DNA from: Mesorhizobium sp. 131-2-1
GTDB lineage: Bacteria > Pseudomonadota > Alphaproteobacteria > Rhizobiales > Rhizobiaceae
Direction of reading: 5' to 3'
Length of the DNA stretch: 64,000 bases
Assembly (NCBI RefSeq): GCF_016756535.1
Contig: NZ_AP023247.1
Coordinates: 2,914,501-2,978,500, forward strand
Made by a program: the position numbers and the translations under genes. Shown in pieces: positions 47,393 through 64,000 of the stretch (position 1 is the first letter of the stretch; every line of letters begins with the position of its first letter). Under the pieces are notes generated by a model that ran no database searches, was not told the DNA's origin, and saw nothing but the letters and a program-made list of their open reading frames with translations.

Positions 47393-47980
47393 CTACTGCA
47401 CCTCGTAGCCGACTTCCTCGCTGGCGTGGCACAGCGCCTTCCAGAAGGAGCGGGCGAAGGAGCGGAAGACATAGATGTCGAACTGATCGGCGCCGGTGCG
47501 CTGGATCTGCGCGAACACGTCGTGATGGGTGGTCGAGCGGCCGGCGCCGACCGGGAAGGCCGGCAGGGCGAAATCGATGGCGAAGAACTTCGCCAGCACC
47601 CATTCGGCCTTGGGGCCGGCGATGCGGATGGCGGTGCGGCCATGCGACAGGTCGGTGACGGTGCCTATGTCCGGCGTGATGACGCCGCTGAACGCGGCCG
47701 CAAGGCCCTCGGCGTCGTCGACAACGGTGAACTTGCCGGGCGCGAAGCCGAATGCCGATCTGGCGCCGCTGGTGACGCCGCCGCCGGCGCCGTCGGGCAG
47801 GGCAAGGCCAGCAACCTTGTATATGCCCGACATAAGCCGCTTCTCCTCGCCCGGCCATGCTGCGAGCTGCAGGATCGAGCCCGGCCGCGTCTCGGACAGG
47901 ATGACATCGACGCCATGTTCGAAATTGCCGTGCGAGCCCGCGTGGTACTCCGGCTCGAGCGGAGATTGACGTTCAACCAT
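47393..47980 (-). CDS. soxG: Sarcosine oxidase gamma subunit
   Basis: A 195-residue SoxG-type subunit from the ATG at 47980, overlapping the soxA 3' end by 8 bp. It shows a truncated GcvT-like fold with VTDLSHGRTAIRIAGPKAEW and FDIYVFRSFARSFWKALCHA. The gamma chain stabilises the heterotetramer that oxidises sarcosine to glycine. Upstream in-frame starts to 48079 lie within soxA. It ends the soxBDAG transcript; an MFS gene follows after 130 bp that contains no clear terminator. Confidence 0.9.
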   Translation of the reverse strand: MVERQSPLEPEYHAGSHGNFEHGVDVILSETRPGSILQLAAWPGEEKRLMSGIYKVAGLALPDGAGGGVTSGARSAFGFAPGKFTVVDDAEGLAAAFSGVITPDIGTVTDLSHGRTAIRIAGPKAEWVLAKFFAIDFALPAFPVGAGRSTTHHDVFAQIQRTGADQFDIYVFRSFARSFWKALCHASEEVGYEVQ

Positions 47981-50966
47981 GCATGCGGCTCCCGTCCGGG
48001 TCGTAGAAGTGGTTGGAGACGATCTCGATCGGCCCGAAGCGGTTGCGCAGCGGGTCGGAGACGAATGCGCGCGTGCCACGCCTGGCCTTGCCGGCCTTGA
48101 CCAGCGCCAGCGCGATATGCTTGCCGAGCGCCGGCGAATAGCAGCAGGCGGTGATGTGGCCGATCGAATCGTGCGGACTGGCTTCGTCCAGTTCCTCGAC
48201 GATGTGCGCGCCGCCGTTGAACGGGCGATTGTCGAGCGAGACCAGGCCGACCAGTTGCAGCCGGTCCGACGCGATCAGGCCCTCGCGATCCATCATGGCC
48301 GAGCCGATGAAGGGCTTCTTCTTCGACAGCATCCAGTCGAGGTGCAGGTCGCGCGCCGTGGTGCGGCCGTCGATCTCGGCGCCGGTGACATGGCCCTTCT
48401 CGATGCGCATCGTGCCCAGAGCCTCGAGCCCGTAGGTGACCAGGCCGAACGGCCTGCCGGCCGCGATCAGCGCCTCCCAGACGTGGGTGCCGTAGCCGGC
48501 GCCGGAATAGACCTCGAAGGCCATTTCACCGGAGAAGGAGAGACGGCAGATCATCACCGGGACGCCCGCGATCTGCCCATGGACGATGCCCATGAAGGGC
48601 AGGGTGGCGTTGTCGACGGCGGTTCCGGTGACGCAGGCCGCAAGGATGGCTCTCGCCTTCGGCCCGCCGATGGCGGCGCCCGCCCATTCGTCGGTGACCG
48701 AGGTGACGGTGACCTTCAGCTCCGGCCAGATGACGTCGAGGAAATATTCCAGATGCTGCATCACCTTGCCGGCGTTGGCGGTGGTGGTGGTCATCAGGAA
48801 ATCCTGCTCGCCGAGCCGCCAGGTGGTGCCGTCGTCGAAAGCAAGGCCATCCTCGCGCAGCATCAGGCCGTAGCGGGCCTTGCCGACGGCGAGCGTCGAA
48901 AACATGTTGGTGTAGACGCGGTCGAGGAATTCCGCCGCGTCCGGTCCCTGCACGGCGATCTTGCCCAGCGTCGAGACGTCGACGATGCCGGCGCTCTCGC
49001 GCGTGGCCTTGGCTTCGCGGACATAGGCCTGCTCGACCGTCTCGCCGGCAAGGCCGTAGATCATCGGCCGGTACCAGAGGCCCGCCGCATACATCCTCGC
49101 GCCATTGGCGATGTGCCAGTCATGCATCGGCGTCAGTCGCTCCGGCTTGAGGTCGCCGAACCGCTCGGCCGCCAGCGAGCCGATCGACACCGCCGTGTAG
49201 GGCGGGCGGAAGCGCGTCGTGCCAACGTCGGGGATCGGCTTGCCGAGCGCCTCGGCCATAATGGCGAGGCCCGGCACGTTCGAACTCTTGCCCTGGTCGG
49301 TGGCCATGCCAAGCGTGGTGTAGCGCTTGAGATGCTCGACCGAGACGAAGCCCTCGCGATGCGCCAGCCGCACGTCTTCGGCCGTCACGTCGTGCTGGAA
49401 ATCGACGAAGCTCTTGCCTTTCGCCTTGATCTCGAACACCGGCGCCGGGTCTGGCTCGCCGGGCGCGGCTTCGACGTCCGGCAAGGCCGCCGGCGCATCT
49501 GTGCCGCCGGCTGCGGCGACGCCGGCGGTGCGGCCTTCGGCGATGGCCTCCGCGGTCGAGAAACTGCCAGTGAAGGCGCCGGCGCCGATCCAGCGTTGCG
49601 TCGGCTTCGGCGGCAGGAAGGCCTGCCTGGCCGGGTCCCACTCAGCCTTCGCGCCGGCCTGGCTGGCGAGGTGGATCGTCGGCGACCAGCCGCCCGACAT
49701 CAGCAGGCAGTCGGCGTGGATGCTGCGCGCGTCGCCGGCGAGCGCGCCGCTCAGCATGTCGAAGCGCTGCACCTTGAGGCCGGACAGCGCCTTGCCACCC
49801 TCGGTGGCGACCACGGCATGGCCGGACAGGATCTCCGCCTCGGCCTCGGTGGCCAGTCGGCGCATTTCGTCCGACAGGTCGGGGCGGACGTCGACGATGG
49901 CGACGATCGCGGCCCCTGCCTTCCTCAGTGCCAGGGCCGAACGGTAGGCGCTGTCATTGTTGGTGAACAGGGCAATCCTCTCGCCGGGCAGCACGCCATA
50001 TTCGTTGGCGTAGCGCTCCGCGGCATGCGCCAGCATGACGCCCGGCCGGTCATTGCCGGGGAAAACCAGTGGCCGTTCGAAGGAGCCGGTGGCAAGCACC
50101 ACCGTTTTGGCGCGGATCGCCCAGTATCGATGGCGCGGCTCGCCCTTGGCCGGGCTCTCCTTGTGGTCGCTGACCCGCTCGAGCGCGGCAAGCGTGTTGC
50201 CGTCATAATAGCCCCAGACCGTGGTGCGCGGCAAAAGCCGCACATTGTCGTTGCCTTCGAGCTGGCCGGCGACGCGCGCCGCCCAGTCGGCCGCCGGCAT
50301 GCCGTCGATCGTCTCGCCGGACCAGTTGGCCGAGCCGCCGAAACGTGGATCCAACTCGGCAAGGATGACGCGCGCGCCCTGGTCGGCGGCCGCCTTCGCG
50401 GCCGTCAGCCCGGCCGGGCCGGAGCCGACCACCAGCACGTCGCAGAAGGCGTTCATGCGCTCGTAGCGCGACGTATCGGCGGCGGTGCCAGCCCTGCCCA
50501 GACCGGCGGCGCGGCGGATGAAATGCTCGCAGAACATCCAGAAGCGGGTGCCCTTCAGCGGGCCGATCGCCGGCCCCATGAAGGTCTTGTAGTAGAAGCC
50601 GGCCGACAGGAGTTTGCCGCCGAGCTGATTGACCGCGCTGACGTCCCAGGCGAGCGAGGGGAAACGGTTCTGGCTAACGGCGGTGAGCCCGTCATAGATC
50701 TCGACCATCGTGGCCGCGATGTTCGGTTCGCGGACCTCGCCGCGCAGCACCGTCACCAGCGCGTTCGGTTCCTCGACGCCGGCGGTGAGCACGCCGCGCG
50801 GGCGATGGTACTTGAACGAGCGGCCGAACAGCGTCACGCCGTTGGCGAGCAGCGCCGAGGCCAGCGTATCGCCGGCATGGCCGGTATAGGACACACCGTC
50901 GAAGGTGAAGCGGATGGTGCGCAGCCGGTCGGTCCGGCCGCCGGTCTCGGCGCGACGCGGGCTCAC
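47973..50966 (-). CDS. soxA: Sarcosine oxidase alpha subunit
   Basis: A 997-residue subunit with a GTG start that overlaps the soxD stop by four bases. Domain order: a ferredoxin-like N-terminal domain (IRFTFDGVSYTGHAGDTLAS), a nucleotide-binding FAD/NAD domain with DVLVVGSGPAGLTAAKAAAD near residue 173, and a C-terminal GcvT-like folate domain (from about residue 620; RESAGIVDVSTLGKIAVQG, SGEMAFEVYSGAGYGTHVW). The enzyme oxidises sarcosine, passing the methyl group to tetrahydrofolate to form 5,10-methylene-THF and leaving glycine. Length matches characterised SoxA (about 970-1000). High confidence. Confidence 0.96.
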   Translation of the reverse strand: MSPRRAETGGRTDRLRTIRFTFDGVSYTGHAGDTLASALLANGVTLFGRSFKYHRPRGVLTAGVEEPNALVTVLRGEVREPNIAATMVEIYDGLTAVSQNRFPSLAWDVSAVNQLGGKLLSAGFYYKTFMGPAIGPLKGTRFWMFCEHFIRRAAGLGRAGTAADTSRYERMNAFCDVLVVGSGPAGLTAAKAAADQGARVILAELDPRFGGSANWSGETIDGMPAADWAARVAGQLEGNDNVRLLPRTTVWGYYDGNTLAALERVSDHKESPAKGEPRHRYWAIRAKTVVLATGSFERPLVFPGNDRPGVMLAHAAERYANEYGVLPGERIALFTNNDSAYRSALALRKAGAAIVAIVDVRPDLSDEMRRLATEAEAEILSGHAVVATEGGKALSGLKVQRFDMLSGALAGDARSIHADCLLMSGGWSPTIHLASQAGAKAEWDPARQAFLPPKPTQRWIGAGAFTGSFSTAEAIAEGRTAGVAAAGGTDAPAALPDVEAAPGEPDPAPVFEIKAKGKSFVDFQHDVTAEDVRLAHREGFVSVEHLKRYTTLGMATDQGKSSNVPGLAIMAEALGKPIPDVGTTRFRPPYTAVSIGSLAAERFGDLKPERLTPMHDWHIANGARMYAAGLWYRPMIYGLAGETVEQAYVREAKATRESAGIVDVSTLGKIAVQGPDAAEFLDRVYTNMFSTLAVGKARYGLMLREDGLAFDDGTTWRLGEQDFLMTTTTANAGKVMQHLEYFLDVIWPELKVTVTSVTDEWAGAAIGGPKARAILAACVTGTAVDNATLPFMGIVHGQIAGVPVMICRLSFSGEMAFEVYSGAGYGTHVWEALIAAGRPFGLVTYGLEALGTMRIEKGHVTGAEIDGRTTARDLHLDWMLSKKKPFIGSAMMDREGLIASDRLQLVGLVSLDNRPFNGGAHIVEELDEASPHDSIGHITACCYSPALGKHIALALVKAGKARRGTRAFVSDPLRNRFGPIEIVSNHFYDPDGSRMHG

Positions 50967-51259
50967 GACTTGGCCTCCGTCCTGTGCCGGGTGGCGGATT
51001 TGTGGCCGCCATGCGCGAAGGCCGTGCTGGAAATTTCATGCGTCAGCGTGTTGCGCACGACCCTGACATGGGCGCGGCAGCCGCCGGAATGTTGCCAGAT
51101 CTCATTATGGTCGCCGGCCGGGTTCAGCCGGTCGTAGACATAGGCGTTCCAGGCGTCGAGGTCCTGCGAGTTGGGTTGCGGGCGCTGGCGGTTGCCGTCG
51201 CCCTGGTAGGTGAACTCGATGACGTCGCGCGGGCCGCAATAGGGACATGTGATAAGCAT
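50963..51259 (-). CDS. soxD: Sarcosine oxidase delta subunit
   Basis: A 98-residue zinc-binding subunit. LITCPYCGPRDVIEFTYQGD supplies two Cys ligands (C5, C8), and WQHSGGCRAHVRVVRNT supplies the His/Cys pair near residue 56-61. FTYQGDGNRQRP is well conserved in SoxD. It lies 12 bp after soxB and overlaps soxA by four bases (GTGA), consistent with stoichiometric assembly. No anomalies. Confidence 0.95.
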   Translation of the reverse strand: MLITCPYCGPRDVIEFTYQGDGNRQRPQPNSQDLDAWNAYVYDRLNPAGDHNEIWQHSGGCRAHVRVVRNTLTHEISSTAFAHGGHKSATRHRTEAKS

Positions 51260-51271
51260 CTTGTTTCAACC

Positions 51272-52531
51272 CTAATGCAGCCGAGGCGTCGCGCCCTGGC
51301 CTTTGTCGTCGATGACGAGGCCACGATAGAAGCGGTCGAGCGTGAAGGGCGCGTTGAGCTCGTGCGGCTCGTCCTTGGCGATGGTCCAGGCAAAGCACAA
51401 GCCGGAGGCCGGCGTCGCCTTGAAGCCGCCGTAGCACCAGCCGCAATTGAGATACATGCCAGGCAGCGGGCCGGCGGTGATGATCGGCGAGCCGTCCATT
51501 GTCATGTCGCAGAGACCGCCCCAGGAGCGCAGCATGCGCACGCGCGCCAGGCCGGGGAACAGCGCCAGCATCTCGCTCATCACCTCATCGACGATCGGCA
51601 GACTGCCGCGCTGGGCATAGCTGTTGTAGCCGTCGAGGTCGCCGCCATAGACCAGGCCGCCCTTGTCGGACTGCGAGATGTAGAAGTGGCCCATGCCGAA
51701 GGTCAGGATGGTGTCGATGATCGGCTTCAGCGATTCCGACACGAAGGCCTGCAGCACATGGCTCTCGATCGGCATCTTGTCGATGCCGGCCAGCTGCATG
51801 ACGCGGCCGGTGCTGCCGGCAACGGCGAGCGCCACCTTCTTGGCCCGGATCTCGCCGCGCGTCGTCGACACGCCGGTGATGCGGTCGCCGTCGCGCAGGA
51901 AGCCGGTGACCTCGCAATTCTCGACGATGTCGACGCCGCGCCGGTCGGCACCGCGCGCATAGCCCCAGGCCACCGCATCGTGGCGGGCGCTGCCGGCGCG
52001 CCGCTGCATCAGGCCGCCAATGACAGGGAACCGCGCCGAGCCGGAAACGTCGAGCGCCGGCACGAGCCGCTTGATCTGGTCGACGGTCATCAGCTCGGCA
52101 TCGACGCCGAGATGGCGCATGGCGTTGCCGCGCCTGGCATAGTCGTCGAACTGGGCGGGCGTATGCGCCAGGTTCAGACAGCCGCGCTGCGAGAACATGA
52201 CGTTGTAGTTCAGGTCGTGCGAGAGGTTTTCCCAAAGCTTCATCGAATGCTCGTAGAAGCGGGTGTTGGAAGGCAAAAGGTAGTTCGAGCGCACCGCGGT
52301 GGTGTTGCGGCCGACATTGCCTGAGCCCAGCCAGCCCTTCTCCAGCACCGCGACATTGGTGATGCCGTGCTCCTTGGCGAGGTAGTAGGCGGTCGACAGG
52401 CCGTGCCCGCCACCGCCGATGACGATCACGTCGTAGGATGCCTTCGGGTCCGGCTTGCGCCAGGCCGGCTTCCAGTCCTTGTTGCCGCTGAGCGCGTTCT
52501 TGAGGAGCGAAAAGGCCGAATATTCCGCCAT
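51272..52531 (-). CDS. soxB: Sarcosine oxidase beta subunit
   Basis: A 419-residue flavoprotein. YDVIVIGGGGHGLSTAYYLAKE (residues 33-54) binds noncovalent FAD; the His in GSARHDAVAWG (about residue 184) corresponds to the His bearing covalent FMN in characterised SoxB. Sarcosine binds in this subunit. It is the first gene of soxBDAG and is divergent from a mechanosensitive channel gene across 195 bp. No serine hydroxymethyltransferase (glyA) or purU is next to this operon, unlike several known sox clusters. Confidence 0.95.
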   Translation of the reverse strand: MAEYSAFSLLKNALSGNKDWKPAWRKPDPKASYDVIVIGGGGHGLSTAYYLAKEHGITNVAVLEKGWLGSGNVGRNTTAVRSNYLLPSNTRFYEHSMKLWENLSHDLNYNVMFSQRGCLNLAHTPAQFDDYARRGNAMRHLGVDAELMTVDQIKRLVPALDVSGSARFPVIGGLMQRRAGSARHDAVAWGYARGADRRGVDIVENCEVTGFLRDGDRITGVSTTRGEIRAKKVALAVAGSTGRVMQLAGIDKMPIESHVLQAFVSESLKPIIDTILTFGMGHFYISQSDKGGLVYGGDLDGYNSYAQRGSLPIVDEVMSEMLALFPGLARVRMLRSWGGLCDMTMDGSPIITAGPLPGMYLNCGWCYGGFKATPASGLCFAWTIAKDEPHELNAPFTLDRFYRGLVIDDKGQGATPRLH

Positions 52532-52726
52532 GTTTCATGTCGTCCGGTTTGTGCGATGCGGCAGACTATAGAGCAGGCGGCGGGCGCAAAGCCAAGATTG
52601 CGCCATCGCTTTTCGACTGGCCGACTTCCACTTGCCTGACCGGGGACGGCTTGCCGCGGGGTATGGCGGTCTTTATCAAGAACGAAATTTTCGAAGTCTT
52701 TTCGGCAGCGAGTCGCCATCAACGTC

Positions 52727-55216
52727 ATGTTCTTCCGATTGCTTCGCCTGATCCTGGTTCTGATGCTCGCCGTTTGCGCGCAGCCTTCGCTCGATGCAAT
52801 GGCGCAGGCGATCGGCCAGGGTTCGGCGCAACTGATCGCCGACCAGCAGAAGGTCGTCCAGGATCTGACGGCCAAGACCGATGGTCTCGAAAAGAAGGTC
52901 GCCGACGACGCCGAGGACGACGCGGCACTTGTCGACATCCGCCTGCAGCTCGAGGATCTGTCGCGGGCGGCGCTGAACAGCGCACTGGCCTTCCGCTCGC
53001 GCCTTGCCGACATCAACAATCGGATCGACGTGCTTGGCCCGCCGCCGGCGCAGGGGCAGCCGCAGGAGCCGGCGATCGTCACCAACGAGCGCGGCGCGCT
53101 GGCCGCCGAAAAGGCCGAGATCAACGCCGTCATCGCCGGCGCACAAAACCTGTCGATCCGCATCAACGGGCTGATCGACAAGATCGGCGTCATGCGCAGC
53201 GACCTTTTCCGCAATTTCCTTGCCAAACGCTACGAACTGACGGACGCGCTCAGTCCGCAGGCCTTTTCCGATGCGCACGAGCAATTCACCGGCCTTTACA
53301 AGGCCGTCTCGTCCTGGCTGACCTTCGCCTTCAAATTCAAACTCCAGGCCGTCCTCGCCGCGGCCCTGATGGCGCTGGGACTGGCGGCGGTGCTGCTGGT
53401 CGGCGGGCGGCGCCTGTTCGGGCGCATCTTCGAAGCCGACCCGTCCGTCGAGGAGCCGTCCTATCTCAGCCGGCTTTCCGTGGCGTTCTGGTCGACGCTG
53501 CTGCCGTCCGCGGCGCTCGCGGTCTTCCTCGCCTCGACCGTGTTCTTCTTCAACTATTACAATGTGCTGCGCGGCGACATCGGCGTCTTCCTCAATGCGC
53601 TGCTCGCCGTCATCGCGGTGGTGTTCTGCGTCAACCGGCTGACCAACGCCGCGCTCGAGCCGCGCCTGCCGAACTGGCGCCTGATCCCGGTCGAGACCGG
53701 TCCGGCGCGCTGGCTGGTGCGGCTGACGACGGCGATGGCGGTGGTCATCGGCTTCAACAATTTCCTGTCCGTGGTCAACGACAAGATGGGCTCGCCGCTG
53801 TCGCTGACCATCGCGCGCAGCTTCGTTGCGACCATCATCGTCGGCGTCATCCTGATCCTGATGGGTCTGCTGAAGCCGTTCCGGGCGCGCGATGGAACAT
53901 GGCGCCCGTGGCCGGCCTGGCTTCGCGTCACCGCCATCGCGCTCGGTTTGTTCACCATCGCGGCGGCGCTGCTCGGCTATATCGGCCTTGCGCTGTTCGT
54001 CTCGCTGCAGGTGGTGGTCACCGGCACCGTGCTCGTCACCGCCTATATCGGCTTCCTGTCGGCACGGGCGATCGGCGAGGAGGGCGGCTTCGCCGATACG
54101 TCGGTCGGTCGCTGGCTGACCGCCAATTCCAGCTATGACGAAACCGCGCTCGACCAGCTCGGCCTCGTCGTCAGCATCGCCATCAACCTGATGATCGTGC
54201 TGGTGTTCCTGCCGCTGATCCTGCTGATGTGGGGGTTCCAACCCGGCGACATCCAGGCGTGGGCTTACAAGCTGGCGACGGGCGTCACCATCGGCTCGGT
54301 GACGATCTCGTTCACCGGCATCCTTAGCGGCATCGTCGTCTTCGTCATCGGCTATTTCCTGACGCGCTGGTTCCAGGGCTGGCTCGACGGCTCGGTGATG
54401 GCGCGCGGCAGGGTCGATACCGGGGTGCGCAACTCGATCCGGCTGGCGGTCGGCTATGCCGGCGTCGCCGTTGCCGGCCTCGTCGGCATCTCGGCGGCCG
54501 GCATCGACCTGTCAAACCTGGCACTCGTTGCCGGCGCCCTGTCGCTCGGTATCGGCTTCGGCCTGCAGAATGTGGTGTCGAACTTCGTCTCCGGCCTGAT
54601 CCTGCTTGCCGAGCGTCCGTTCAAGGTCGGCGACTGGATCGTCGCCGGCGACACCACCGGCACGGTCAAGAAGATCAGCGTGCGCGCCACCGAGATCGAG
54701 ACGTTCCAGCGGCAGTCGGTGATCCTGCCCAACTCGAACCTGATCAACAACGCGGTCGGCAACTGGACGCACCGCAACAAGCTCGGCCGGATCGACATCA
54801 AGGTCGGCGTCGCCTATGGCAGCGACGTCAAGCGGGTGCATGCGCTTCTGCTCGACATCGCGCGCAGCCATCCGCTGGTGCTGAAAAACCCCGAACCGTT
54901 CGTGCTGTTCGCCAATTTCGGCACCGCCGCGCTCGAATTCGAGATACGGGTGTTCCTCGCCGACATCCTGAACGGCAACATCGTGCAGAACGACATCCGC
55001 TTTGCCATCTTCGATGAGTTCAACAGCGAGCATATCGAAATCCCCTCGACCCCGCGCGCAGTGGTCGAAGCGAAGAAGGCCGAGGCATGGCCGCTCGACG
55101 ACGACAAGATGGAGGCCGACTTCGCCGAGAAGGAGCAAGCGGAGGCTGAAGCCGCGATCGAGAAGGCGCGCCAGGCGAAGTCGAGGCGCAAAGGCAGCAA
55201 ACCCGATCCGGATTGA
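52727..55216 (+). CDS. Large MscS-family mechanosensitive channel (DUF3772)
   Basis: An 829-residue inner-membrane channel. A signal peptide (MFFRLLRLILVLMLAVCAQPSLDAMA) is followed by a periplasmic DUF3772-type helical domain to about residue 190, then about ten hydrophobic helices. The pore helix and vestibule are GALSLGIGFGLQNVVSNFVSG near residue 607, followed by the beta domain FKVGDWIVAGDTTGTVKKIS. A charged tail rich in Glu/Lys ends the protein. Role: pressure release on hypo-osmotic shock; N-methylated osmolytes handled by neighbours make this location sensible but the link is only suggestive. The ribosome site is weak. Confidence 0.92.
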   Translation: MFFRLLRLILVLMLAVCAQPSLDAMAQAIGQGSAQLIADQQKVVQDLTAKTDGLEKKVADDAEDDAALVDIRLQLEDLSRAALNSALAFRSRLADINNRIDVLGPPPAQGQPQEPAIVTNERGALAAEKAEINAVIAGAQNLSIRINGLIDKIGVMRSDLFRNFLAKRYELTDALSPQAFSDAHEQFTGLYKAVSSWLTFAFKFKLQAVLAAALMALGLAAVLLVGGRRLFGRIFEADPSVEEPSYLSRLSVAFWSTLLPSAALAVFLASTVFFFNYYNVLRGDIGVFLNALLAVIAVVFCVNRLTNAALEPRLPNWRLIPVETGPARWLVRLTTAMAVVIGFNNFLSVVNDKMGSPLSLTIARSFVATIIVGVILILMGLLKPFRARDGTWRPWPAWLRVTAIALGLFTIAAALLGYIGLALFVSLQVVVTGTVLVTAYIGFLSARAIGEEGGFADTSVGRWLTANSSYDETALDQLGLVVSIAINLMIVLVFLPLILLMWGFQPGDIQAWAYKLATGVTIGSVTISFTGILSGIVVFVIGYFLTRWFQGWLDGSVMARGRVDTGVRNSIRLAVGYAGVAVAGLVGISAAGIDLSNLALVAGALSLGIGFGLQNVVSNFVSGLILLAERPFKVGDWIVAGDTTGTVKKISVRATEIETFQRQSVILPNSNLINNAVGNWTHRNKLGRIDIKVGVAYGSDVKRVHALLLDIARSHPLVLKNPEPFVLFANFGTAALEFEIRVFLADILNGNIVQNDIRFAIFDEFNSEHIEIPSTPRAVVEAKKAEAWPLDDDKMEADFAEKEQAEAEAAIEKARQAKSRRKGSKPDPD

Positions 55217-55688: not shown

Positions 55689-55877
55689 CTGTTTAGTTCC
55701 CGTGACAGCCGAGTCAGAACTGGCCGACGCGGCGCATCAACGCTCCGAAAGCCAATTGCGGCATGAATGCGGCATTCAGTTGCGGTTCAGCTTCGATCTC
55801 ATATAAGCTCGCATGCAAAGGGCGAGAATGCCTTGCAAATGCAACAAGAAGGCGGTGTGGAAACACCGATATTGCAA

Positions 55878-56141
55878 ATGTGGAAGTCTGTCGTCGCCGC
55901 CATCGCTTTTCTTGCCGTGGGCGGGTCGGCTTTCGCCGCCAGCGCGGTCAACAAGGACGCCGAAACACGGACGCTGATCGTGACCGAGGGCGGCGGCAAG
56001 ACGGAGCTGGCGTTGGCCGCCGGCGAAACCGTGGAATTCTGCCCGAACGGCTGTTTCGTCACCTTGCCGAACGGTGACCTTGAAGCCCTTACCGGCTCGG
56101 AAACGGTCGAGATCTCGGGCGGCGTCGCCCGCATCAAGTAA
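55878..56141 (+). CDS. Small predicted periplasmic protein
   Basis: 87 residues from the ATG at 55878. A Sec signal peptide (MWKSVVAAIAFLAVGGSAFA) is followed by a mature domain of about 67 residues with CPNGCFVTLPNGDLEALTGS, including a C-x3-C pair that may form a disulfide, and a regular beta-like pattern. Other in-frame starts (55767, 55839) would bury the signal peptide behind extra residues; none has a good ribosome site. It ends 20 bp before a perfect intrinsic terminator. Family not recognised. Confidence 0.7.
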   Translation: MWKSVVAAIAFLAVGGSAFAASAVNKDAETRTLIVTEGGGKTELALAAGETVEFCPNGCFVTLPNGDLEALTGSETVEISGGVARIK

Positions 56142-56344: not shown

Positions 56345-57784
56345 ATGGACGCGCGGTCGGACAGGAACGCAATTCCGCTTGCGGTCGATCTCGACGGCAC
56401 GCTGATTGCAACCGATCTTCTGTGGGAAGGCCTGTTCATCCTTCTCAAGCAGAATCCGCTCTATGTCTTCCTGGTGCCGTTCTGGCTGGCCGGCGGGCCG
56501 GCCAGGCTGAAGCAGGAGATCGCGGCCCGCATCGACATCGATCCGGCTTCGCTGCCTTATCGCGAGGCGCTGCTCGATCGGCTCCGCACCGAGCATCGGG
56601 AAGGTCGCAAGATCGTGCTGGCGACCGGCACGCCGCGCAAGTTCGCCGAGGCGATCGCCTCGCATCTGGGCATATTCGAGCGCGTCCTGGCAACCGATGG
56701 TCCGCACAACATGACCTCAGGCAGGAAACGCGACTCGCTGGTCGCCGCCTATGGCGACGGCGGCTTCGACTATGCGGGCAACAGCCGGCATGACCTCCAG
56801 GTCTTCGACGCCGCGCGCAGCGCGATCGTGGTGGCGCCCGACCGCCAGGCCGCGCGCTGGCAGGCCGCGCATGACGCCGAAACGGTCGCGGCGCCGAAGC
56901 CGACCTTGAAGACGTTCGTCAAGATGCTGCGCGTGCATCAATGGCTGAAGAATGCGCTGATCGCGGTGCCGATGGTGCTGTCGCACGAGTACTTCAACAT
57001 CGACATGATCTGGGAATGTGTGCTGGCGTTCATCTCCTTCAGCGCGACGGCTTCCGCCATCTACATCCTCAACGACTTCTTCGACCTCGCGCTCGACCGC
57101 AAGCATCCGACCAAGCGCAGCCGCCCCTTCGCCAGCGGCGCGCTGTCGATCCCGTTCGGCTTCGGCGCGATGGTGGCGCTGATCGCCGTCGGCATCGCCG
57201 CCGGTCTGTTGCTGCCGATAGAATTCCTTGGCGTGCTCGGCGGCTATATGGTCGTCACCACCGCCTATTCGCTGTCGTTCAAGCGCATGCTCCTGGTCGA
57301 TGTGCTGACGCTGGCCGGCCTCTACACGATCCGGGTGATGGCGGGTGCCGCGGCTACCGGCGTCGACGTCTCCTTCTGGCTGCTCGCCTTCTCGATCTTC
57401 TTCTTCCTGTCGCTGGCTCTGGTGAAGCGCTTCGTCGAATTGCGCACCACCGCCATTCCACCGGGTGAACGCATTGCCGGCCGCGGCTACCGCACCGAGG
57501 ATCAGGAGATCGTCGCCCAGGCCGGCATGGCCTCCGCCTTCTCCTCGGCCCTAGTGCTCGCGCTCTACATGGACAGCGTCGCAGTGCGCGAACTCTATCC
57601 GCATCCATGGGTGATGTGGCCGCTGGCGCCGATCGTGCTCTACCTAACCATGCGTGTCTGGATCCTCGCGCGCCGCGATGAGATGCACGACGATCCGGTC
57701 GTCTTCATCATCAGCGACTGGCGCAGCCAGATCGTTGTCGCCATCGGCGCCGCCCTTCTGGTCGCGGGAGGCTGGGGCTGGTGA
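56345..57784 (+). CDS. HAD phosphatase-UbiA prenyltransferase fusion (phosphoribosyl transfer to polyprenyl-P)
   Basis: 479 residues in two parts. Residues 1-175 are a HAD phosphatase domain: DLDGT (D15, D17), LATGTPRKF (T94) and K128, with motif IV as GNSRHD. Residues 185-479 are a UbiA membrane domain with about eight helices and NDFFDLALDRKHPTKRSRPF (243-261), the form seen in decaprenyl-phosphate phosphoribosyltransferases. One chain could thus transfer phosphoribose from PRPP to a polyprenyl phosphate and remove the 5-phosphate. The next gene, DprE1-like, overlaps by four bases, supporting the route to polyprenyl-phosphoryl arabinose. Ubiquinone or heme prenylation is less likely. Confidence 0.85.
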   Translation: MDARSDRNAIPLAVDLDGTLIATDLLWEGLFILLKQNPLYVFLVPFWLAGGPARLKQEIAARIDIDPASLPYREALLDRLRTEHREGRKIVLATGTPRKFAEAIASHLGIFERVLATDGPHNMTSGRKRDSLVAAYGDGGFDYAGNSRHDLQVFDAARSAIVVAPDRQAARWQAAHDAETVAAPKPTLKTFVKMLRVHQWLKNALIAVPMVLSHEYFNIDMIWECVLAFISFSATASAIYILNDFFDLALDRKHPTKRSRPFASGALSIPFGFGAMVALIAVGIAAGLLLPIEFLGVLGGYMVVTTAYSLSFKRMLLVDVLTLAGLYTIRVMAGAAATGVDVSFWLLAFSIFFFLSLALVKRFVELRTTAIPPGERIAGRGYRTEDQEIVAQAGMASAFSSALVLALYMDSVAVRELYPHPWVMWPLAPIVLYLTMRVWILARRDEMHDDPVVFIISDWRSQIVVAIGAALLVAGGWGW

Positions 57785-59139
57785 TCAGGGGCGGCGAACG
57801 TTTCGGCAGTTTCGGGCTGGCGACGCCTCCGGCACGCCATTCCATACCGGCCGACGATGCCATCGCGCTGCTGAAGAGCGGTGCGGCCAAGCCGGGCTCG
57901 CTGCTCGGCTATGGCAATGGCCGTTCCTATGGCGACACCTGCCAGAACAAGGGCGGCTCGGTGGCCGACATGCGGCCGCTCAACCACATCCGCGCCTTCA
58001 ATGCCGAGACAGGCGTGGTCGAGGCCGATGCCGGCGTGCTTCTGTCCGACATCATCGCCCATGCAGCACCCTACGGCTTCTTCCCGGCGGTGGTTCCCGG
58101 CACGCAACTCGTGACGCTCGGCGGGGCGATTGCCAACGACGTCCACGGCAAGAACCATCACCGGCGCGGCACGTTCGGCTGCCATGTCGAATCGCTGACG
58201 TTGCTGCGTTCGGACGGCAGGACCTATCGCTGCTCCTCGACGGACAATGCGCGGCTGTTCCGGGCAACCATCGGCGGCATGGGGCTGACCGGGCTGATCC
58301 TGTCGGCCTCGATCCGGCTGATGCGGGTGCCCTCGCTCGACATCGTCGAGACGGCGACGCCATTTCGCGATCTCGGCGAATTCTTCGAGCTCGCCGAGGC
58401 GGCCGACCAGGCCAATGAATATGCCGTCGCCTGGATCGACCAGCTCGCCCACGGACATGAGCGAGGGCGCGGCTTGCTGTTCACCGGCAACCATGCCGAG
58501 CATGGCTCGCACACGGCGACCCGCGCCGGCGCCCGCCTTTCGGTGCCGCTGCAGCCGCCGTTCAATGTGCTCAACCGGCCATTCCTCACCGTCTTCAACG
58601 CCGCTTACCGGTGGAAGAAGGGGCGGTCGCCGGCGCCGCGCCAGGTTGGCTACCAGGGCTTCTTCTTTCCGCTCGACGGTGTTGGCGACTGGAACCGGCT
58701 CTACGGGCCGAAAGGCCTTTTCCAGCACCAGAGCGTGGTGCCGGAGGAGACCGCGCGGCATGCTGTGCCGGCACTGCTGGAGGCGGTAAGGCGCGCCGGA
58801 CAAGGGTCGTTCCTCACCGTGCTGAAACGCTTCGGCAAAGTCCGCTCGCCGGCGCTGCTGTCGTTTCCGAGGCCCGGTTACACGCTGACGCTCGACTTCC
58901 CCAACCGGGGCGACAAGACACTCAGGCTGCTCTCCGAACTCGACCGCATCACGGTCGAGGCGGGCGGCGCGGTCAACCCCTACAAGGACGCGCGCATGGG
59001 CGCCGAGACCTTCGCGGCGTCCTTCCCGGACTGGCAGCGGCTGGAGACGTTGCGCGACCCCGCATTCATGTCCGACTTCTGGGTACGGACGGCAAAGAAA
59101 TTGGATGAAAGGCGAGGGACGGCAGAGGCGGCGGATTAG
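57781..59139 (+). CDS. DprE1-like FAD oxidase (decaprenylphosphoryl-ribose 2-oxidase family)
   Basis: A 452-residue VAO-type flavoprotein with a GTG start overlapping the previous stop. The FAD-binding YGNGRSYGDTCQNKGGSVAD and MRPLNHIRAF (residues 40-70) closely follow the DprE1 pattern, as do VVPGTQLVTLGGAIANDVHG and NHHRRGTFGCHVESLTLL near residue 125. A Lys/Asp-rich C-terminus NPYKDARMGAETFAASFPDW corresponds to the DprE1 active-site end. It would oxidise C2 of a lipid-linked ribofuranose. A short SDR partner of DprE2 type is absent; an extended SDR is encoded two genes on. Confidence 0.85.
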   Translation: MIRGGERFGSFGLATPPARHSIPADDAIALLKSGAAKPGSLLGYGNGRSYGDTCQNKGGSVADMRPLNHIRAFNAETGVVEADAGVLLSDIIAHAAPYGFFPAVVPGTQLVTLGGAIANDVHGKNHHRRGTFGCHVESLTLLRSDGRTYRCSSTDNARLFRATIGGMGLTGLILSASIRLMRVPSLDIVETATPFRDLGEFFELAEAADQANEYAVAWIDQLAHGHERGRGLLFTGNHAEHGSHTATRAGARLSVPLQPPFNVLNRPFLTVFNAAYRWKKGRSPAPRQVGYQGFFFPLDGVGDWNRLYGPKGLFQHQSVVPEETARHAVPALLEAVRRAGQGSFLTVLKRFGKVRSPALLSFPRPGYTLTLDFPNRGDKTLRLLSELDRITVEAGGAVNPYKDARMGAETFAASFPDWQRLETLRDPAFMSDFWVRTAKKLDERRGTAEAAD

Positions 59140-59261
59140 GTAGAACTCGAATAAATCATGGTAAACAAAACGTTAAGACCAGGGTTTACTCGAAACAGTC
59201 ACGTGGTTTCACGAAATTTTTGCAGGTTTGTAGTAGGACCGCTGCGGGGCAGGGTGGCAAC

Positions 59262-59711
59262 ATGAAATACATCGTCTTCATTCTCTTCACGGTCATGACC
59301 AATGCCGCGGCGCAGCTGATGCTGAAGCAAGGCATGATGTCGCTCGGGCCGATTTCGTTCGAGGGCACCAATCCGCTCCTGAAGCTGCTGCAGATCGTCT
59401 TCAGCCCCTGGGTATTCCTCGGGCTCTGCACTTTCGTCATCTCGATGGCCTCGCACCTCTATGTGCTGTCCAAGGTCGAGCTCAGCTTCGCCTATCCGTT
59501 CCTCAGCCTTGCCTACGTTGCGGTGGCGGTGTTCGCCTACTTCGTCTTCCGCGAGGACCTCAACGGTTGGCGCATTGCCGGCATCGCCTGCATCTGCGTC
59601 GGCACGGTGCTGATCGCCCAGAGTGGCCAGGATTTGGGTGGGCGCGGGCATGAGGACCAGACCGCTTCCATCACACAAGACAAGATCGGCAGCAGCGAGA
59701 TCGTTCGATGA
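59262..59711 (+). CDS. Small EamA/SMR-like four-helix transporter
   Basis: A 149-residue membrane protein with four predicted helices, from MKYIVFILFTVMTNAAAQLM to GIACICVGTVLIAQSG, and a hydrophilic tail of about 25 residues. The fold is that of SMR/ArnE-type subunits, several of which flip lipid-linked sugars across the inner membrane. It begins 122 bp after the DprE1-like gene and overlaps the SDR gene by four bases. Flipping of the lipid-linked pentose is the natural hypothesis; drug export is the alternative. Confidence 0.75.
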   Translation: MKYIVFILFTVMTNAAAQLMLKQGMMSLGPISFEGTNPLLKLLQIVFSPWVFLGLCTFVISMASHLYVLSKVELSFAYPFLSLAYVAVAVFAYFVFREDLNGWRIAGIACICVGTVLIAQSGQDLGGRGHEDQTASITQDKIGSSEIVR

Positions 59712-60715
59712 GACATGTGATTTTCGGCGGCGACGGTTTCGTCGGTCGTCACCTTGCTCCCAAGCTTGTTGCCGACGGCGAAGAGGTCGTTGTCGCCGAC
59801 ATCGTCAAGAGCGATCTGCCGCACTATCGCTCGGCCCGTTTCGTCACATGCGACGTCACCGATCCGGCCTCGGTCGCGGCGGTCGGGCTCAAGGGCGACG
59901 ACATGGTCTACAACCTTTCGGCGAAGATGCTGTCGCCGATCCAGGTGCGCGCCAAGCGGCACGACTTCTTCTTCCCGGTCAACTTCCACGGCACCGAGCA
60001 CATCATCAAGGCGATGGACAAGGCCGGCGCGTCGAAGCTCGTCCACTACACGACCGACATGATCTACGGCCATACGGTGACGCTGCCGATGACAGAGGAG
60101 CATCCGGTCGCGCCGCTCGGCGAGTACGGCCTGTCGAAGCTGAAGACCGAGGAGCTTGCCGCCGAGTGGCGCAAGCGCGGCATGTCGATCTCGCTGTTCA
60201 GGCCGCGCCTGATCATCGGCCCCGGCCGCCTCGGCATTTTGGAAAAACTGTTCAAGCTGATCGACTGGAATTGCCCCGTGCCGATGATCGGCTCGGGCAA
60301 AAATCCCTACCAGTTCATCTCGGTGTTCGACTGCGCGGAGGCCGCCCGCGCGGCCTGGAAGGCGGGCGTGCCGAACGAGGCCTACAATCTCGGCTCGCTC
60401 AACCCGCCGCCGGTCAAAAAACTGCTCGGCGATCTGATCCGGCATGCCGGCTCGAAATCGATCCTGATCCCTACACCGGGCTGGGCGGTCAAGCGCACGC
60501 TCGACCTGCTCGACCTCGTCAACATGCCGATCATGGATCCGGAACAGTATCTTATCGCCGATGAGGAGTGCGTGCTGGACGTGTCCAAGGCCGAGCGTCA
60601 GCTCGGCTGGGTACCGCAATATCGCGACGAGGACATGCTGATCGCCGCCTATAGCGAATACCGCGCCAAGAAGGACGGCCATGCCGTCGCCACCGAACAT
60701 GTGCCCGCCGAATAA
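59708..60715 (+). CDS. Extended SDR (NAD-dependent epimerase/dehydratase)
   Basis: A 335-residue extended SDR. The Rossmann motif is variant but clear, HVIFGGDGFVGRHLAP at residue 3; the catalytic YGLSK (Y-x3-K) is near residue 140 preceded by Thr/Asp (HYTTDMIYG). The C-terminal domain includes FRPRLIIGPGRLGILEKLF. It could reduce the keto-sugar made by the DprE1-like enzyme or epimerise a nucleotide sugar. It is coupled to the small transporter by ATGA and followed 30 bp later by a class III aminotransferase. Substrate not established. Confidence 0.85.
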   Translation: MRHVIFGGDGFVGRHLAPKLVADGEEVVVADIVKSDLPHYRSARFVTCDVTDPASVAAVGLKGDDMVYNLSAKMLSPIQVRAKRHDFFFPVNFHGTEHIIKAMDKAGASKLVHYTTDMIYGHTVTLPMTEEHPVAPLGEYGLSKLKTEELAAEWRKRGMSISLFRPRLIIGPGRLGILEKLFKLIDWNCPVPMIGSGKNPYQFISVFDCAEAARAAWKAGVPNEAYNLGSLNPPPVKKLLGDLIRHAGSKSILIPTPGWAVKRTLDLLDLVNMPIMDPEQYLIADEECVLDVSKAERQLGWVPQYRDEDMLIAAYSEYRAKKDGHAVATEHVPAE

Positions 60716-60745
60716 GGCGACCAAGGCCAACAGGAGATTTTCGAG

Positions 60746-62218
60746 ATGACCGTCATGGCCAAGCCGGAACACACGGGCACGCGCACGCTGGTCGATGCGC
60801 CGGCGCTGTCGCCCGCAACCATCGCCAAGCCCGACCTGATCAGCGTCGAGCAGGCCAAGGCGATGGATGTCGCCCGCATCACCGACCTGTTCAAGGCGCA
60901 TCTCAACCCTGGACAGCTGCATTTCATGAAGCTGCTCGGCTTCCACAAGATCAAGATCGAGCGCGCCGAAGGCATGTTCTACATCGACCAGAACGGCCGC
61001 AAGATCCTCGACTTCTTCGGCGGTTTCGGTTCGCTGGCCTTCGGCCACAACCACCCGCGCATTCTGGAAGCCCGGAAAAAATTTCAAGAGGAGAAGCGGC
61101 AGGAGATCGCCATCGCCTTCATGTCGCAGTATGCGGCGGCCCTGGCACACAACATCGCCAAGTGCTCGCCCGGCGACCTCGACATGGTTTTCCTCGGCTC
61201 GTCCGGGTCGGAAGCGATGGAAGCGGCGGTGAAGCTTGCCGAACGCGCCGCCGGCCCGAAGCGGCCGAAGGTCGTCTATGCCGAGAATTCCTTCCACGGC
61301 AAGACCAAGGGCGTGCTGGCGATCACCGACGGCCAGCTCTATCGCGCCGACTTCAAGGTGGCGGACAATGTCGTGCGCGTGCCCTTCGCCGACATCGACG
61401 CGGTGGAGCGCCTGTTCAAGAGCGATCCCGAGATCGGCGTCATCGTGCTCGAAACCATCCAGGGCGGCGGCGGCATCATCCAGGCAGAGGCGCAGTACTG
61501 GCGGAAGCTGCGCGCGCTCTGCGACCAGTACGGCGTGCTGTGGGTCGCCGACGAGGTGCAATGCGGCTATGGCCGCTCGGGCCGCTTCTACGCCTTCGAG
61601 CACTATGGCGTCGTGCCTGACGTGACGGCGCTGGCAAAATCGCTGGGCGCCGGCAAGGCGGCGGTCGGCGCCATGATCGCCAGGCGCGATGTCTACATGA
61701 AGGCCTATGGCACGCCGAAGACGGCGATGATCCACGCCATGGCGACCTTCGGCGGCATGGGCGAGGCCTGTGTCACCGCGATCGAGGGGCTGAACGTGCT
61801 CTATGACGAAGGCCTGATCGACAATGCGGCCTCGACGGGCGACTACCTCCTGCGGCGCTTGCAGGCGCTGAAGGAGAAGTATCCGAAGATGATCAAGGAC
61901 GTGCGCGGCAAGGGGTTCATGATCGGGCTCGAGTTCCACGATTTCTCGCAGACGCTGCCGATGGTGCTGCGGCCGGTGGTCAGCGTGCTCGACGACAAGC
62001 TGAAGGGCTCGCTCTCGGGCTTCGTCGGCTCGCTGCTGCTGCGCGATTACGACGTGCTCGTCGCCTTCACCGAATACAACCGCAACGTCATCCGGCTGGA
62101 GCCGCCGCTGACCTGCCAGCGCGAGCATGTCGACCGCTTCGTCGATGCCTTCGACAGCCTGCTGTCGCGCGGCATCGTGGCTATCGTGAAGGATTTCGTC
62201 AAAAGCCAGGTTCGCTGA
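60746..62218 (+). CDS. Class III PLP aminotransferase
   Basis: A 490-residue fold-type I enzyme of the acetylornithine/putrescine/glutamate-semialdehyde group. FFGGFGSLAFGHNHPRILEA near residue 90, FLGSSGSEAMEAAVKLAER near 150, VADEVQCGYGRSG near 270 and the Schiff-base Lys in ALAKSLGAGKAAVGAM near 300 are all present. It carries an N-terminal extension of about 40 residues relative to minimal family members. The position in a lipid-sugar operon suggests amination of a sugar or polyamine-like donor, but standard sugar aminotransferases belong to another class. The role is open. Confidence 0.85.
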   Translation: MTVMAKPEHTGTRTLVDAPALSPATIAKPDLISVEQAKAMDVARITDLFKAHLNPGQLHFMKLLGFHKIKIERAEGMFYIDQNGRKILDFFGGFGSLAFGHNHPRILEARKKFQEEKRQEIAIAFMSQYAAALAHNIAKCSPGDLDMVFLGSSGSEAMEAAVKLAERAAGPKRPKVVYAENSFHGKTKGVLAITDGQLYRADFKVADNVVRVPFADIDAVERLFKSDPEIGVIVLETIQGGGGIIQAEAQYWRKLRALCDQYGVLWVADEVQCGYGRSGRFYAFEHYGVVPDVTALAKSLGAGKAAVGAMIARRDVYMKAYGTPKTAMIHAMATFGGMGEACVTAIEGLNVLYDEGLIDNAASTGDYLLRRLQALKEKYPKMIKDVRGKGFMIGLEFHDFSQTLPMVLRPVVSVLDDKLKGSLSGFVGSLLLRDYDVLVAFTEYNRNVIRLEPPLTCQREHVDRFVDAFDSLLSRGIVAIVKDFVKSQVR

Positions 62219-62226
62219 GCAGGACG

Positions 62227-63468
62227 ATGCTGACCAGGCCGCCCATTGTCCCGACCAATCCGCTCGACCGGCTGACCGGCGCTGGCCTGGCGTGGGGCGA
62301 GGGGACCTATGCGCGGTTCGCCGCACCGATCGGGGCGGCTGCCTTCGCGCTCTATATCCTGCTGACGGCGGTGACGGCGTGGATCATGCCCGACGCCAAC
62401 TGGGACATGGTGCCTTATCTGGCGATCGCCGAGGAAGGCAGCTATCCCGACCCGCAGGCCCTGCATGATTATGCCTACAGCGCGGTCAAGGCCGGCGTCT
62501 CGGCGGCCGACTACAAGACGCTGACCGACGATGGCGGTGGCTTCCGCAGCCACATGGCGGAGAACGCCGCCGACTTTCATTCGCTGCTCGGCATGTACCG
62601 GATCAAGTTCCTCTATGCCGAGATCCTGTCCGGCCTCAGCCATGTCGTGTCGCCGGTCGAGGCGATGCGGCTCGTCTCGGTGGTCTCGGTGCTGCTGTTC
62701 GGCGTCATCACGCTGCTCTGGCTGCGATCGGAAGGCGCGCTGGCGCTGGCGCCGGTGATCGGCGCGGTGCTGATCATGGCCGATTTCGGCGACGCGGCGC
62801 GGGCCTCGACGCCGGATCTGATGTGCGCCGCGCTCTTCCTCGGAGGGCTCTATGCCTATGTGCGCAAGCGCGAGGCGGCGACTGCGATCCTGCTCTTCCT
62901 CGCCTTCATGGCGCGGCCGGACAACATCGTCTTCCTGGCCATCTTCGCCGTGCTGCTGGCCGCCTTCCGGCAGAAGGCATGGGGCGCGCTCGCAGGCTTT
63001 GCCGCCTCTTTCGTTGCCTATTTCGCCATCTCGCATTGGGCCCAACACCCCGGCTGGTGGCCGCATCTGTGGTTCTCCACCATCGAGCAGCATTACAATA
63101 TGGACGGCTTCGAGCCGCCCTTCTCGGTCGTGGCCTATCTCCGGGCTTTCGCGGTTTCGCTGCTGCGCGCCGTCACCATGAACAGTTGGGTAGGTGTCTG
63201 CGTGCTGGCGCTGGCCGGCTGGTATGCGCTCGGTCGCGCCGGCTTCCGGCTCGAGCGCCGCGCCGGCATCCTGCTTGCCGCGCTGGTGCTCGGCGTGCTG
63301 GCGAAGTTCACGGTGTTTCCGATCCACGATACGCGCATCTACTTCCCCAATCTCCTGCCGCCCTTCCTGCTGCTTGCCGGCCCGCTGATGGCGCTGTGGG
63401 CCTCGGCCGGGCAGCGCGGCGCCACGCAGCACGTCAATGCCGCAGACAAGCCCGGAGACACACAATGA
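62227..63468 (+). CDS. Polytopic GT-C-like membrane protein
   Basis: A 413-residue protein with about nine to ten hydrophobic helices. After the first helix a loop carries WIMPDANWDMVPYLAIAEEG; an acidic residue pair at this location is a hallmark of GT-C glycosyltransferases that use lipid-phosphate sugars. ARASTPDLMCAALFLGGLYA and FMARPDNIVFLAIFAVLLAA are further segments. It starts 8 bp after the aminotransferase and overlaps the FkbM gene by four bases. Candidate role: transfer of the lipid-linked pentose to an envelope acceptor on the periplasmic side. The family name is not certain. Confidence 0.7.
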   Translation: MLTRPPIVPTNPLDRLTGAGLAWGEGTYARFAAPIGAAAFALYILLTAVTAWIMPDANWDMVPYLAIAEEGSYPDPQALHDYAYSAVKAGVSAADYKTLTDDGGGFRSHMAENAADFHSLLGMYRIKFLYAEILSGLSHVVSPVEAMRLVSVVSVLLFGVITLLWLRSEGALALAPVIGAVLIMADFGDAARASTPDLMCAALFLGGLYAYVRKREAATAILLFLAFMARPDNIVFLAIFAVLLAAFRQKAWGALAGFAASFVAYFAISHWAQHPGWWPHLWFSTIEQHYNMDGFEPPFSVVAYLRAFAVSLLRAVTMNSWVGVCVLALAGWYALGRAGFRLERRAGILLAALVLGVLAKFTVFPIHDTRIYFPNLLPPFLLLAGPLMALWASAGQRGATQHVNAADKPGDTQ

Positions 63469-64000
63469 GTTCCGTTTCCAGCCTGGCGCGCCTTGCGCTG
63501 TCGTTCGTCCTGCCCGCCGGGCTGCTCGATCGCGGACCGGCGTTGCGCGGCACGAAATTCCTCGCCAAGGCGGCGCTGAAGGCGCGCTTCGGTGGCAGAC
63601 CGTTCCAGATGGTCAATGTCGGCGCCTGCGACGGCGCGCTGTTCGACGATGTCACGCCATGGCTGCACCGCATTGCGCGGGCGCGTGCCGTGCTGGTCGA
63701 GCCGGTTCCCTACAACCAGAAACGGCTGCGCGCCAACTATCCCGATACGGAACGCTTCATCATCGAGCCGGTGGCGGTGACCCGGACCAAGGGCTCGATC
63801 ACCGTCCATACTTTCGATGCCGCGGCACTCGAGGCCGGTACGCTGCCGATCGAGTTCATCGGCTGCTCCTCCGTCACCGACACCAATCTGATGTCGGGCA
63901 AGAACGCCTGGGGCGAGGCGGATTCCAACTTCAACAAGTTCGCGCCCTATCTGAAGGACATCGAGGTGCCCTCGGAACCTTTGCAGACGCTGCTCGACCG
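63465..64000 (+). CDS. FkbM-family methyltransferase (5' part only)
   Basis: 178 residues are readable before the right edge. MVNVGACDGALFDDVTPW near residue 48 is the SAM-binding loop, and AVLVEPVPYNQKRLRANYPD the second motif; both follow the FkbM pattern of sugar O-methyltransferases. The start overlaps the preceding stop by four bases. Placement at the end of the lipid-sugar operon suggests methylation of the transferred sugar or its acceptor. Confidence 0.85.
   Translation, partial: MSSVSSLARLALSFVLPAGLLDRGPALRGTKFLAKAALKARFGGRPFQMVNVGACDGALFDDVTPWLHRIARARAVLVEPVPYNQKRLRANYPDTERFIIEPVAVTRTKGSITVHTFDAAALEAGTLPIEFIGCSSVTDTNLMSGKNAWGEADSNFNKFAPYLKDIEVPSEPLQTLLD

Follow-up and report, generated by a model that had tools for sequence, protein, structure and literature searches.

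An operon of Rhizobiaceae with an aminotransferase in place of DprE2, a candidate source of a lipid-linked amino-pentofuranose

Gene content of the operon

The DNA analysed here, called the window, is a stretch of 64,000 nucleotides from Mesorhizobium sp. 131-2-1 (contig NZ_AP023247.1, positions 2,914,501 to 2,978,500). It ends in an operon of seven genes whose predicted products include a HAD-UbiA fusion and a DprE1-like oxidase. The new part of this operon is an aminotransferase in place of the DprE2 of arabinose systems. All seven are closely packed and read in the + direction, starting at position 56345; they are named here as follows.

56345..57784, + strand: U, HAD phosphatase-UbiA fusion, 479 aa; predicted polyprenyl-phosphate phosphoribosyltransferase and 5'-phosphatase
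57781..59139, + strand: E1, DprE1-like FAD oxidase, 452 aa; predicted to oxidize a lipid-linked pentose at C2
59262..59711, + strand: SMR, ArnF-like membrane protein of the SMR/EamA type, 149 aa from ATG; flippase candidate
59708..60715, + strand: SDR, extended short-chain dehydrogenase/reductase, epimerase-like, 335 aa; predicted accessory C3-epimerase
60746..62218, + strand: AT, class-III pyridoxal phosphate (PLP) aminotransferase, 490 aa; predicted to aminate a keto-pentose lipid
62227..63468, + strand: GT-C, candidate membrane glycosyltransferase of the GT-C type, 413 aa
63465..64000, on to about 64217, + strand: FkbM, FkbM-type methyltransferase, 250 aa, cut by the window end

4/6 gene junctions overlap or are no more than 10 bases apart, with 4-base overlaps at U/E1 and SMR/SDR. 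The FkbM frame ends 217 bases beyond the window, which otherwise holds the complete operon. The host genome of 7.11 Mb consists of two contigs, and the operon is on the 6.8-Mb contig. The order U-E1-SMR-SDR-AT was found in 77/80 loci examined (80 of 129 confirmed loci), the remaining 3/80 being stretches of 4.7–11.8 kb that end at contig ends. This recurring gene order is far above chance. The nearest named copies of U and E1 among the matches listed come from Mesorhizobium.

U matches the NCBIfam model PRK08238 ("UbiA family prenyltransferase") over residues 3–476 with 638 bits (cut-off 351), and also matches Pfam UbiA and HAD. Five UbiA genes are present in the host genome, just one of them above the cut-off of the HAD-UbiA model. 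The UbiA part aligns with the solved Mycobacterium tuberculosis enzyme 8j8j (E 3.5e-25) in a match that spans the HPTKR loop; entry 8j8k, in which this loop is mostly alanine, scores lower against U. The alignment to 8j8j places the phosphoribosyltransferase motif N-D-x-x-D-x-x-x-D and the later R/E residues in U. Residue conservation was counted over 141 U rows, including the window's own (L006; loci and genomes are designated L and G throughout). N243, D244, D247, D251, R260, K313, D319 and R362 are present in 141/141 rows, E365 in 140/141, and the HAD residues Asp15 and Asp17 in 139/141 and 138/141, respectively. With HAD and transferase residues intact, U is predicted to be a polyprenyl-phosphate phosphoribosyltransferase and phosphatase. 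An earlier note on this DNA had drawn attention to the phosphatase-prenyltransferase fusion. The fusion is present, an N-terminal HAD domain with nucleophile Asp joined to UbiA, but it is not new, as Citrobacter youngae ORF15 with the same domain order is already characterized in sections of PMC11127046. A UbiA-family protein of 974 aa, about twice the usual length, is encoded in Azospirillum ramasamyi (L253, 5486–8826) and is followed by an EamA transporter; it may join the donor synthase to an additional domain.

E1 scored 332 bits with the NCBIfam DprE1 model, under the cut-off of 500, and is called DprE1-like rather than DprE1. It aligns with solved DprE1 chains over residues 15–427 (E ~6e-72). 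His122, Tyr50 and Lys402 are invariant in 106 AT-type copies, the window's included, and in 18 others. The residues aligned with DprE1 His132 and Lys418 are likewise invariant in the 124 copies. Passages of PMC6128881 describe both His132 and Lys418 as inhibitor contacts. E1 Thr370 aligns with M. tuberculosis Cys387, the cysteine given as the benzothiazinone binding residue in parts of PMC3206020 and PMC6128881, so a benzothiazinone sensitivity test would tell little here. Together the family matches and the 8j8j and DprE1 alignments support the claim, also made in the earlier note, of a lipid-linked pentofuranose system with a phosphatase-UbiA fusion and a DprE1-like oxidase.

SMR falls below the cut-offs of its NCBIfam models, ArnF (51 bits, cut-off 99) and ArnE (33 bits, cut-off 92), and matches Pfam EamA (33.6 against 28.2). 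Relatives with 34–35% identity occur in three loci that have U but neither E1 nor AT (L047, L050, L205), so SMR by itself is no pointer to an amine.

SDR matches Pfam Epimerase (E 6.6e-34), its closest solved chain is the GalE-type 3ehe, and it carries the motifs GGDGFVG (residue 7) and YGLSK (residue 140); an epimerase role fits these features. As a hopanoid-associated HpnA it scored 63 bits against a cut-off of 368 and was rejected, with no search aimed at hopanoid genes. In G191 a relative (40%) is found beside an SMR gene and a gene for a 644-aa protein, with no AT in the stretch. Another relative (46%), on plasmid pAB510f of Azospirillum sp. B510 (L251, 7271–11602), adjoins genes for a 572-aa hypothetical protein and a GMC oxidoreductase, with no aminotransferase, and is perhaps part of another sugar-on-lipid variant.

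AT matches Pfam Aminotran_3 (E 8.2e-86). Its closest solved chains are 4ppm (titled "Aminotransferase", presumably PigE) and putrescine aminotransferase 4uox, and its best NCBIfam model is PigE, below cut-off. Lys298 and Asp269 are in place, Lys298 within a motif aligned with 4uox and 4ppm; we take it to be the PLP lysine.

The GT-C candidate matches GT87 weakly, below cut-off. A structure was modelled for this 413-aa family only, and the model of the window's protein has the GT-C fold, with ArnT 5ezm among the fold matches. Relatives occur in 85/109 AT loci. In 17/109 loci AT is followed by a protein of another family, ~585 aa long, which seems to replace the 413-aa candidate; two loci have both families. 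Three members scanned gave no Pfam match and the family is not counted as GT-C. Many of its members are encoded beyond AT in the reverse direction, as in L134 (15828–17591, − strand) and L195. FkbM matches Pfam Methyltransf_21 with 57 bits, and a relative more than 50% identical is present in 63/109 AT loci. The flippase candidate of SMR type, the GT-C-like protein and the methyltransferase had been named previously for this operon, and all three are supported, by family matches and, for GT-C, by its model.

Association of AT with U and exclusion of DprE2

Among 199 genomes sampled from Rhizobiaceae (GTDB), to which the window belongs, U matches (E up to 1e-20) occur in 116 and AT matches in 106. 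All 106 AT genomes carry U, AT is found in 0/83 genomes without U, and the U and AT matches start less than 8 kb apart in 100/106. The Fisher value for this association, 2.7e-45, ignores genome relatedness and is not to be read as a probability. Across the family, AT was found in 62 of the 109 genera sampled. SDR (E 1e-60) is likewise absent from the ten genomes that have U and lack AT, and both U and AT are missing from G457, a member of the same genus as the window. A wider sample of 385 genomes of the class was searched with the PRK08238 cut-off for U and with E up to 1e-120 for AT and 1e-50 for SDR. The U cut-off was passed in 28/385 genomes, AT was found in only two (the window's and G205) and SDR in three (the window's, G205 and G191, the last with 40% identity).

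140 loci were fetched, consisting of 105 with AT and E1, 3 with AT without E1, 15 with DprE2 and E1, 3 with E1 alone (L093, at a contig end; L185, with AT elsewhere in the genome; and L206) and 14 with none of these. SDR is present in all 108 AT loci. AT and DprE2 occur together in 0/140 loci, with 108 having AT only and 15 DprE2 only. AT and DprE2 are locally mutually exclusive. A model of DprE2 built from 13 loci was run on 42 genomes (8 controls and 34 AT genomes), the best 65 candidates being scored in larger genomes. True DprE2 proteins score at least 250 bits and other SDRs at most 125. DprE2 was detected in 8/8 control genomes and in 2/34 AT genomes (G455 and G486), in both at separate loci. 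The window genome has no DprE2 at E 1e-25 with the 13-row model (65 of 123 candidates scored), and its best score with a single DprE2 query was 48 bits (all 66 candidates scored). A 28% DprE2-like match near E1 of G421 was not counted as DprE2.

Rearranged loci provide natural experiments on the role of each gene. Mapped AT loci without SDR come from one genus only. In this genus, G403 (99% complete) has U-E1-SMR-AT followed by a member of the ~585-aa family, with no SDR genome-wide at E 1e-60; SDR is also absent from G575 (79% complete), and G505 has all five genes. Since G403 and G575 keep AT without SDR, AT seems not to need SDR for its carbonyl. Five genomes have the operon without E1 (G426, G472, G421, G486 and G558; mapped in four, in G558 deduced from gene spacing). 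Each has exactly one DprE1-like match, elsewhere in the genome and with a canonical signature, and in G486 this lone gene adjoins DprE2. The pairing of E1-less operons with a canonical DprE1-like gene elsewhere suggests that a canonical 2-keto product serves AT. That E1 is dispensable, as operons L190, L192 and L194 might indicate, was rejected because each of their three genomes has a DprE1-like gene at another site, as do two more.

U and E1 can also be parted from the other genes. In G479 and G466, SMR-SDR-AT-GT-C form one block and U-E1 another, joined in G479 by a DprE2-like gene, and in G430 and G523 SMR-SDR-AT and U-E1 are likewise apart. G205, from another family, has the order SMR-SDR-UbiA-E1-AT. 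Its SMR, SDR and AT are 55–68% alike to those of the window, its UbiA is 28% alike and has no HAD half, and its E1 groups with DprE2-linked E1s (100/100 support), outside the clade of AT-operon E1s. A shared 2-keto intermediate, reduced by DprE2 or aminated by AT, is compatible with these patterns.

Proposed pathway and alternatives

On balance we think it probable, if not strongly so, that the operon makes a polyprenyl-phosphate-linked amino-pentofuranose (2-amino-2-deoxy) which is handed to a periplasmic GT-C transferase. In the first step U would form a lipid-linked pentofuranose from phosphoribosyl pyrophosphate (PRPP), a reaction demonstrated for C. youngae ORF15, whose domains come in the same order. 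E1 would then oxidize C2 to a ketone, and AT, in the position held by DprE2 in arabinose systems, would convert the ketone to an amine, giving 2-amino-2-deoxy-pentofuranose. The extended SDR probably inverts C3, with no net redox change. SMR may flip the lipid-sugar, and the GT-C protein would place the sugar on an envelope glycan, where FkbM might methylate the product in some species. What was observed is gene order, family membership, residues, co-occurrence and exclusion; every reaction in this operon is inferred, the steps after the first from protein families and gene patterns, and so are the identity of the sugar, the carbon that bears the amine, the flipping and the acceptor. The redox count agrees with this pathway, as the single carbonyl produced by E1 would be consumed by AT.

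Several observations weigh against this pathway. T370 together with N-P-Y-K (one N-S-Y-K) at 399–402 is present in 108/108 operon E1s (the window's, L093 and L185 counted). A370 with Y-L-A-K or Y-P-A-K is seen in the remaining 16/16; among these are L206, L207 and L208, in whose genomes AT is encoded at another site. This signature of the operon E1s could mark a different oxidation site or the inheritance of one clade. In a tree that took in 11 of the Mesorhizobium-type loci L059–L138, all sampled AT-operon E1s fall into a single clade of 44 rows, which favours descent at least in part. A requirement of T370/NPYK for the amino pathway is weakened because the signature tracks one clade and because G205 and six genera (G426; G472; G421; G486 with G558; G479; G466) pair SMR-SDR-AT with a canonical E1. 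The T370/NPYK pattern is found in E1 of G403, G575 and G430, and the canonical A370-type pattern in G421, G466, G479 (Y-A-A-K) and G558. The closest characterized aminotransferases, PigE and putrescine aminotransferase, act on aldehydes, not ring ketones; some class-III aminotransferases use ketones. Neither candidate transferase family was seen in the fetched stretch of 9/109 AT loci. SDR is absent in one genus only, where a substitute may be present. In G479, which is not one of the 42 genomes scored for DprE2, a U-E1-DprE2-like locus (38% identity) lies apart from the AT block, and E1 has an in-frame stop. With DprE2 or a DprE2-like gene elsewhere in G455, G486 and G479, arabinose may be made there too.

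The main rivals of a 2-amino sugar are arabinose and an amine at another carbon, since E1 and SDR could still yield arabinose and the nearest aminotransferases use aldehydes. The earlier note had proposed a D-arabinofuranose donor, for which E1 would oxidize C2, the extended SDR would reduce as a stand-in for DprE2 and AT would do something else. The DprE1-like nature of E1 with its catalytic residues kept, the SDR in all 108 AT loci and the association of DprE1/E2 loci with arabinofuranose described in sections of PMC11127046 are consistent with this proposal. It leaves AT without a carbonyl, though AT genomes always have U, and it requires an extended epimerase-type SDR, unlike the short DprE2, to act as reductase. 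Because DprE2 was found neither in the 108 AT loci nor among the scored candidates of the window genome, and because one genus (G403 and G575) keeps AT without SDR, AT is the better candidate for the E1 product. D-arabinose is possible but less likely than the 2-amino-pentose; we consider an arabinofuranose donor unlikely. Amination at another carbon is also unlikely. In that case a C5 aldehyde or a C3 ketone, from SDR or from an E1 with a shifted site, would give a 5-amino- or 3-amino-pentofuranose lipid. In its favour, the closest solved aminotransferases act on terminal aldehydes, and the operon E1s have their own residues beside the catalytic Lys. The retention of AT without SDR and beside canonical E1s argues against it.

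Two further explanations take AT or U out of the pathway. AT might make a separate small amine for the glycan or belong to nearby amine catabolism, the sugar being plain ribose, xylose or arabinose. The operon is flanked by genes that we presume to be sarcosine-oxidase-like and dimethylglycine-dehydrogenase-like, and AT resembles putrescine aminotransferase. SMR-SDR-AT nevertheless stay together when split from U/E1 (G479, G466, G523, G430) and, in G205, beside other neighbours, which makes this explanation improbable. AT as a catabolic enzyme of the neighbouring genes was judged unlikely on the same linkage to SMR-SDR where AT is split from U. A UbiA enzyme of quinone or heme synthesis would share the superfamily fold with U. 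This is very improbable and was rejected, as U has the complete phosphoribosyltransferase motif in common with 8j8j, models of quinone and heme enzymes give it about 20 bits (cut-offs above 200), and the genome has four other UbiA genes.

Relation to known systems and neighbouring genes

The operon was compared with the three-component system of C. youngae O1/O2 (ORF15, ORF14, ORF12; ORF13 in O2). A PPPRS, a flippase and a GT-C transferase are encoded together in such systems, and the candidate genes U, SMR and GT-C provide the same combination here, with the HAD-UbiA fusion in common. According to sections of PMC11127046, ORF15 was shown to make polyprenyl-P-ribofuranose, the GalE-like SDR ORF13 of O2 changes ribose to xylose, the flippase is of the MATE type rather than SMR/EamA, and the GT-C transferase is GT136. 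Those sections describe no DprE1, and the word aminotransferase is absent from the main text; the window operon has a DprE1-like oxidase and an aminotransferase. In common with the mycobacterial decaprenyl-P-arabinose pathway (Rv3806c, Rv3807c, DprE1, DprE2) are a PRPP-using UbiA enzyme, a DprE1-like oxidase and GT-C acceptor enzymes. The window operon differs in having the phosphatase fused, no DprE2, an added aminotransferase and extended SDR, and Thr for the benzothiazinone-binding Cys.

Other Alphaproteobacteria have U-GtrA-E1-DprE2 loci, for example on plasmid pCC511_2 of Rhizobium sophoriradicis and plasmid pAK3 of Paracoccus sp. AK26, which were assigned to the DprE2 kind by annotation. 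They share with the window one run of a UbiA gene matching the HAD and UbiA parts of U and an FAD-binding oxidoreductase, but have GtrA, carry a short SDR at the expected place of DprE2, and are annotated without an aminotransferase over the stretch covered. The Arn pathway makes undecaprenyl-P-L-Ara4N from UDP-glucuronate and uses ArnE/F and ArnT. The window operon would likewise give a polyprenyl-P amino-pentose by way of an SMR flippase, whose best NCBIfam model is ArnF (below cut-off), and a GT-C transferase. It would differ in starting from PRPP and in making the sugar on the lipid, and no match to ArnA, B or C was found among the seven genes. In Azorhizobium, noeCHOP are tied to Nod-factor arabinosylation and described as mycobacterium-like genes for the D-arabinose precursor (PMC2443382, in part). 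Compared by description rather than by sequence, the noe genes are in the nod operon, whereas the window operon is on the 6.8-Mb contig, is widespread in the family and has an aminotransferase.

Among the matches listed from open PMC full text, no publication dealt with the operon in rhizobia or with a lipid that carries an aminopentofuranose. It is conceivable, at somewhat less than an even chance, that members of the family make polyprenyl-phosphate-2-amino-2-deoxy-pentofuranose straight from PRPP on the lipid. This would be an undescribed donor, a second route unrelated to Arn, and the source of a cationic envelope furanose. If so, many bacteria of the family have an amino-furanose that might escape routine sugar analysis, and DprE1-type chemistry would be a branch point to epimer or amine, served by exchangeable flippase, epimerase and transferase parts. 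A positive envelope charge could matter for peptide resistance; a role in plant recognition is speculation.

A small protein with a signal-like start is encoded just upstream of U (55767–56141, + strand), and similar ones occupy the same place in L134, L169, L170 and L178. One flank of the operon (window 47973–55216) holds sarcosine-oxidase-like genes and a mechanosensitive-channel-like gene, and the other (L006, 9856–12432) a dimethylglycine-dehydrogenase-like gene, all named from sequence resemblance. Like operon flanks recur in several relatives.

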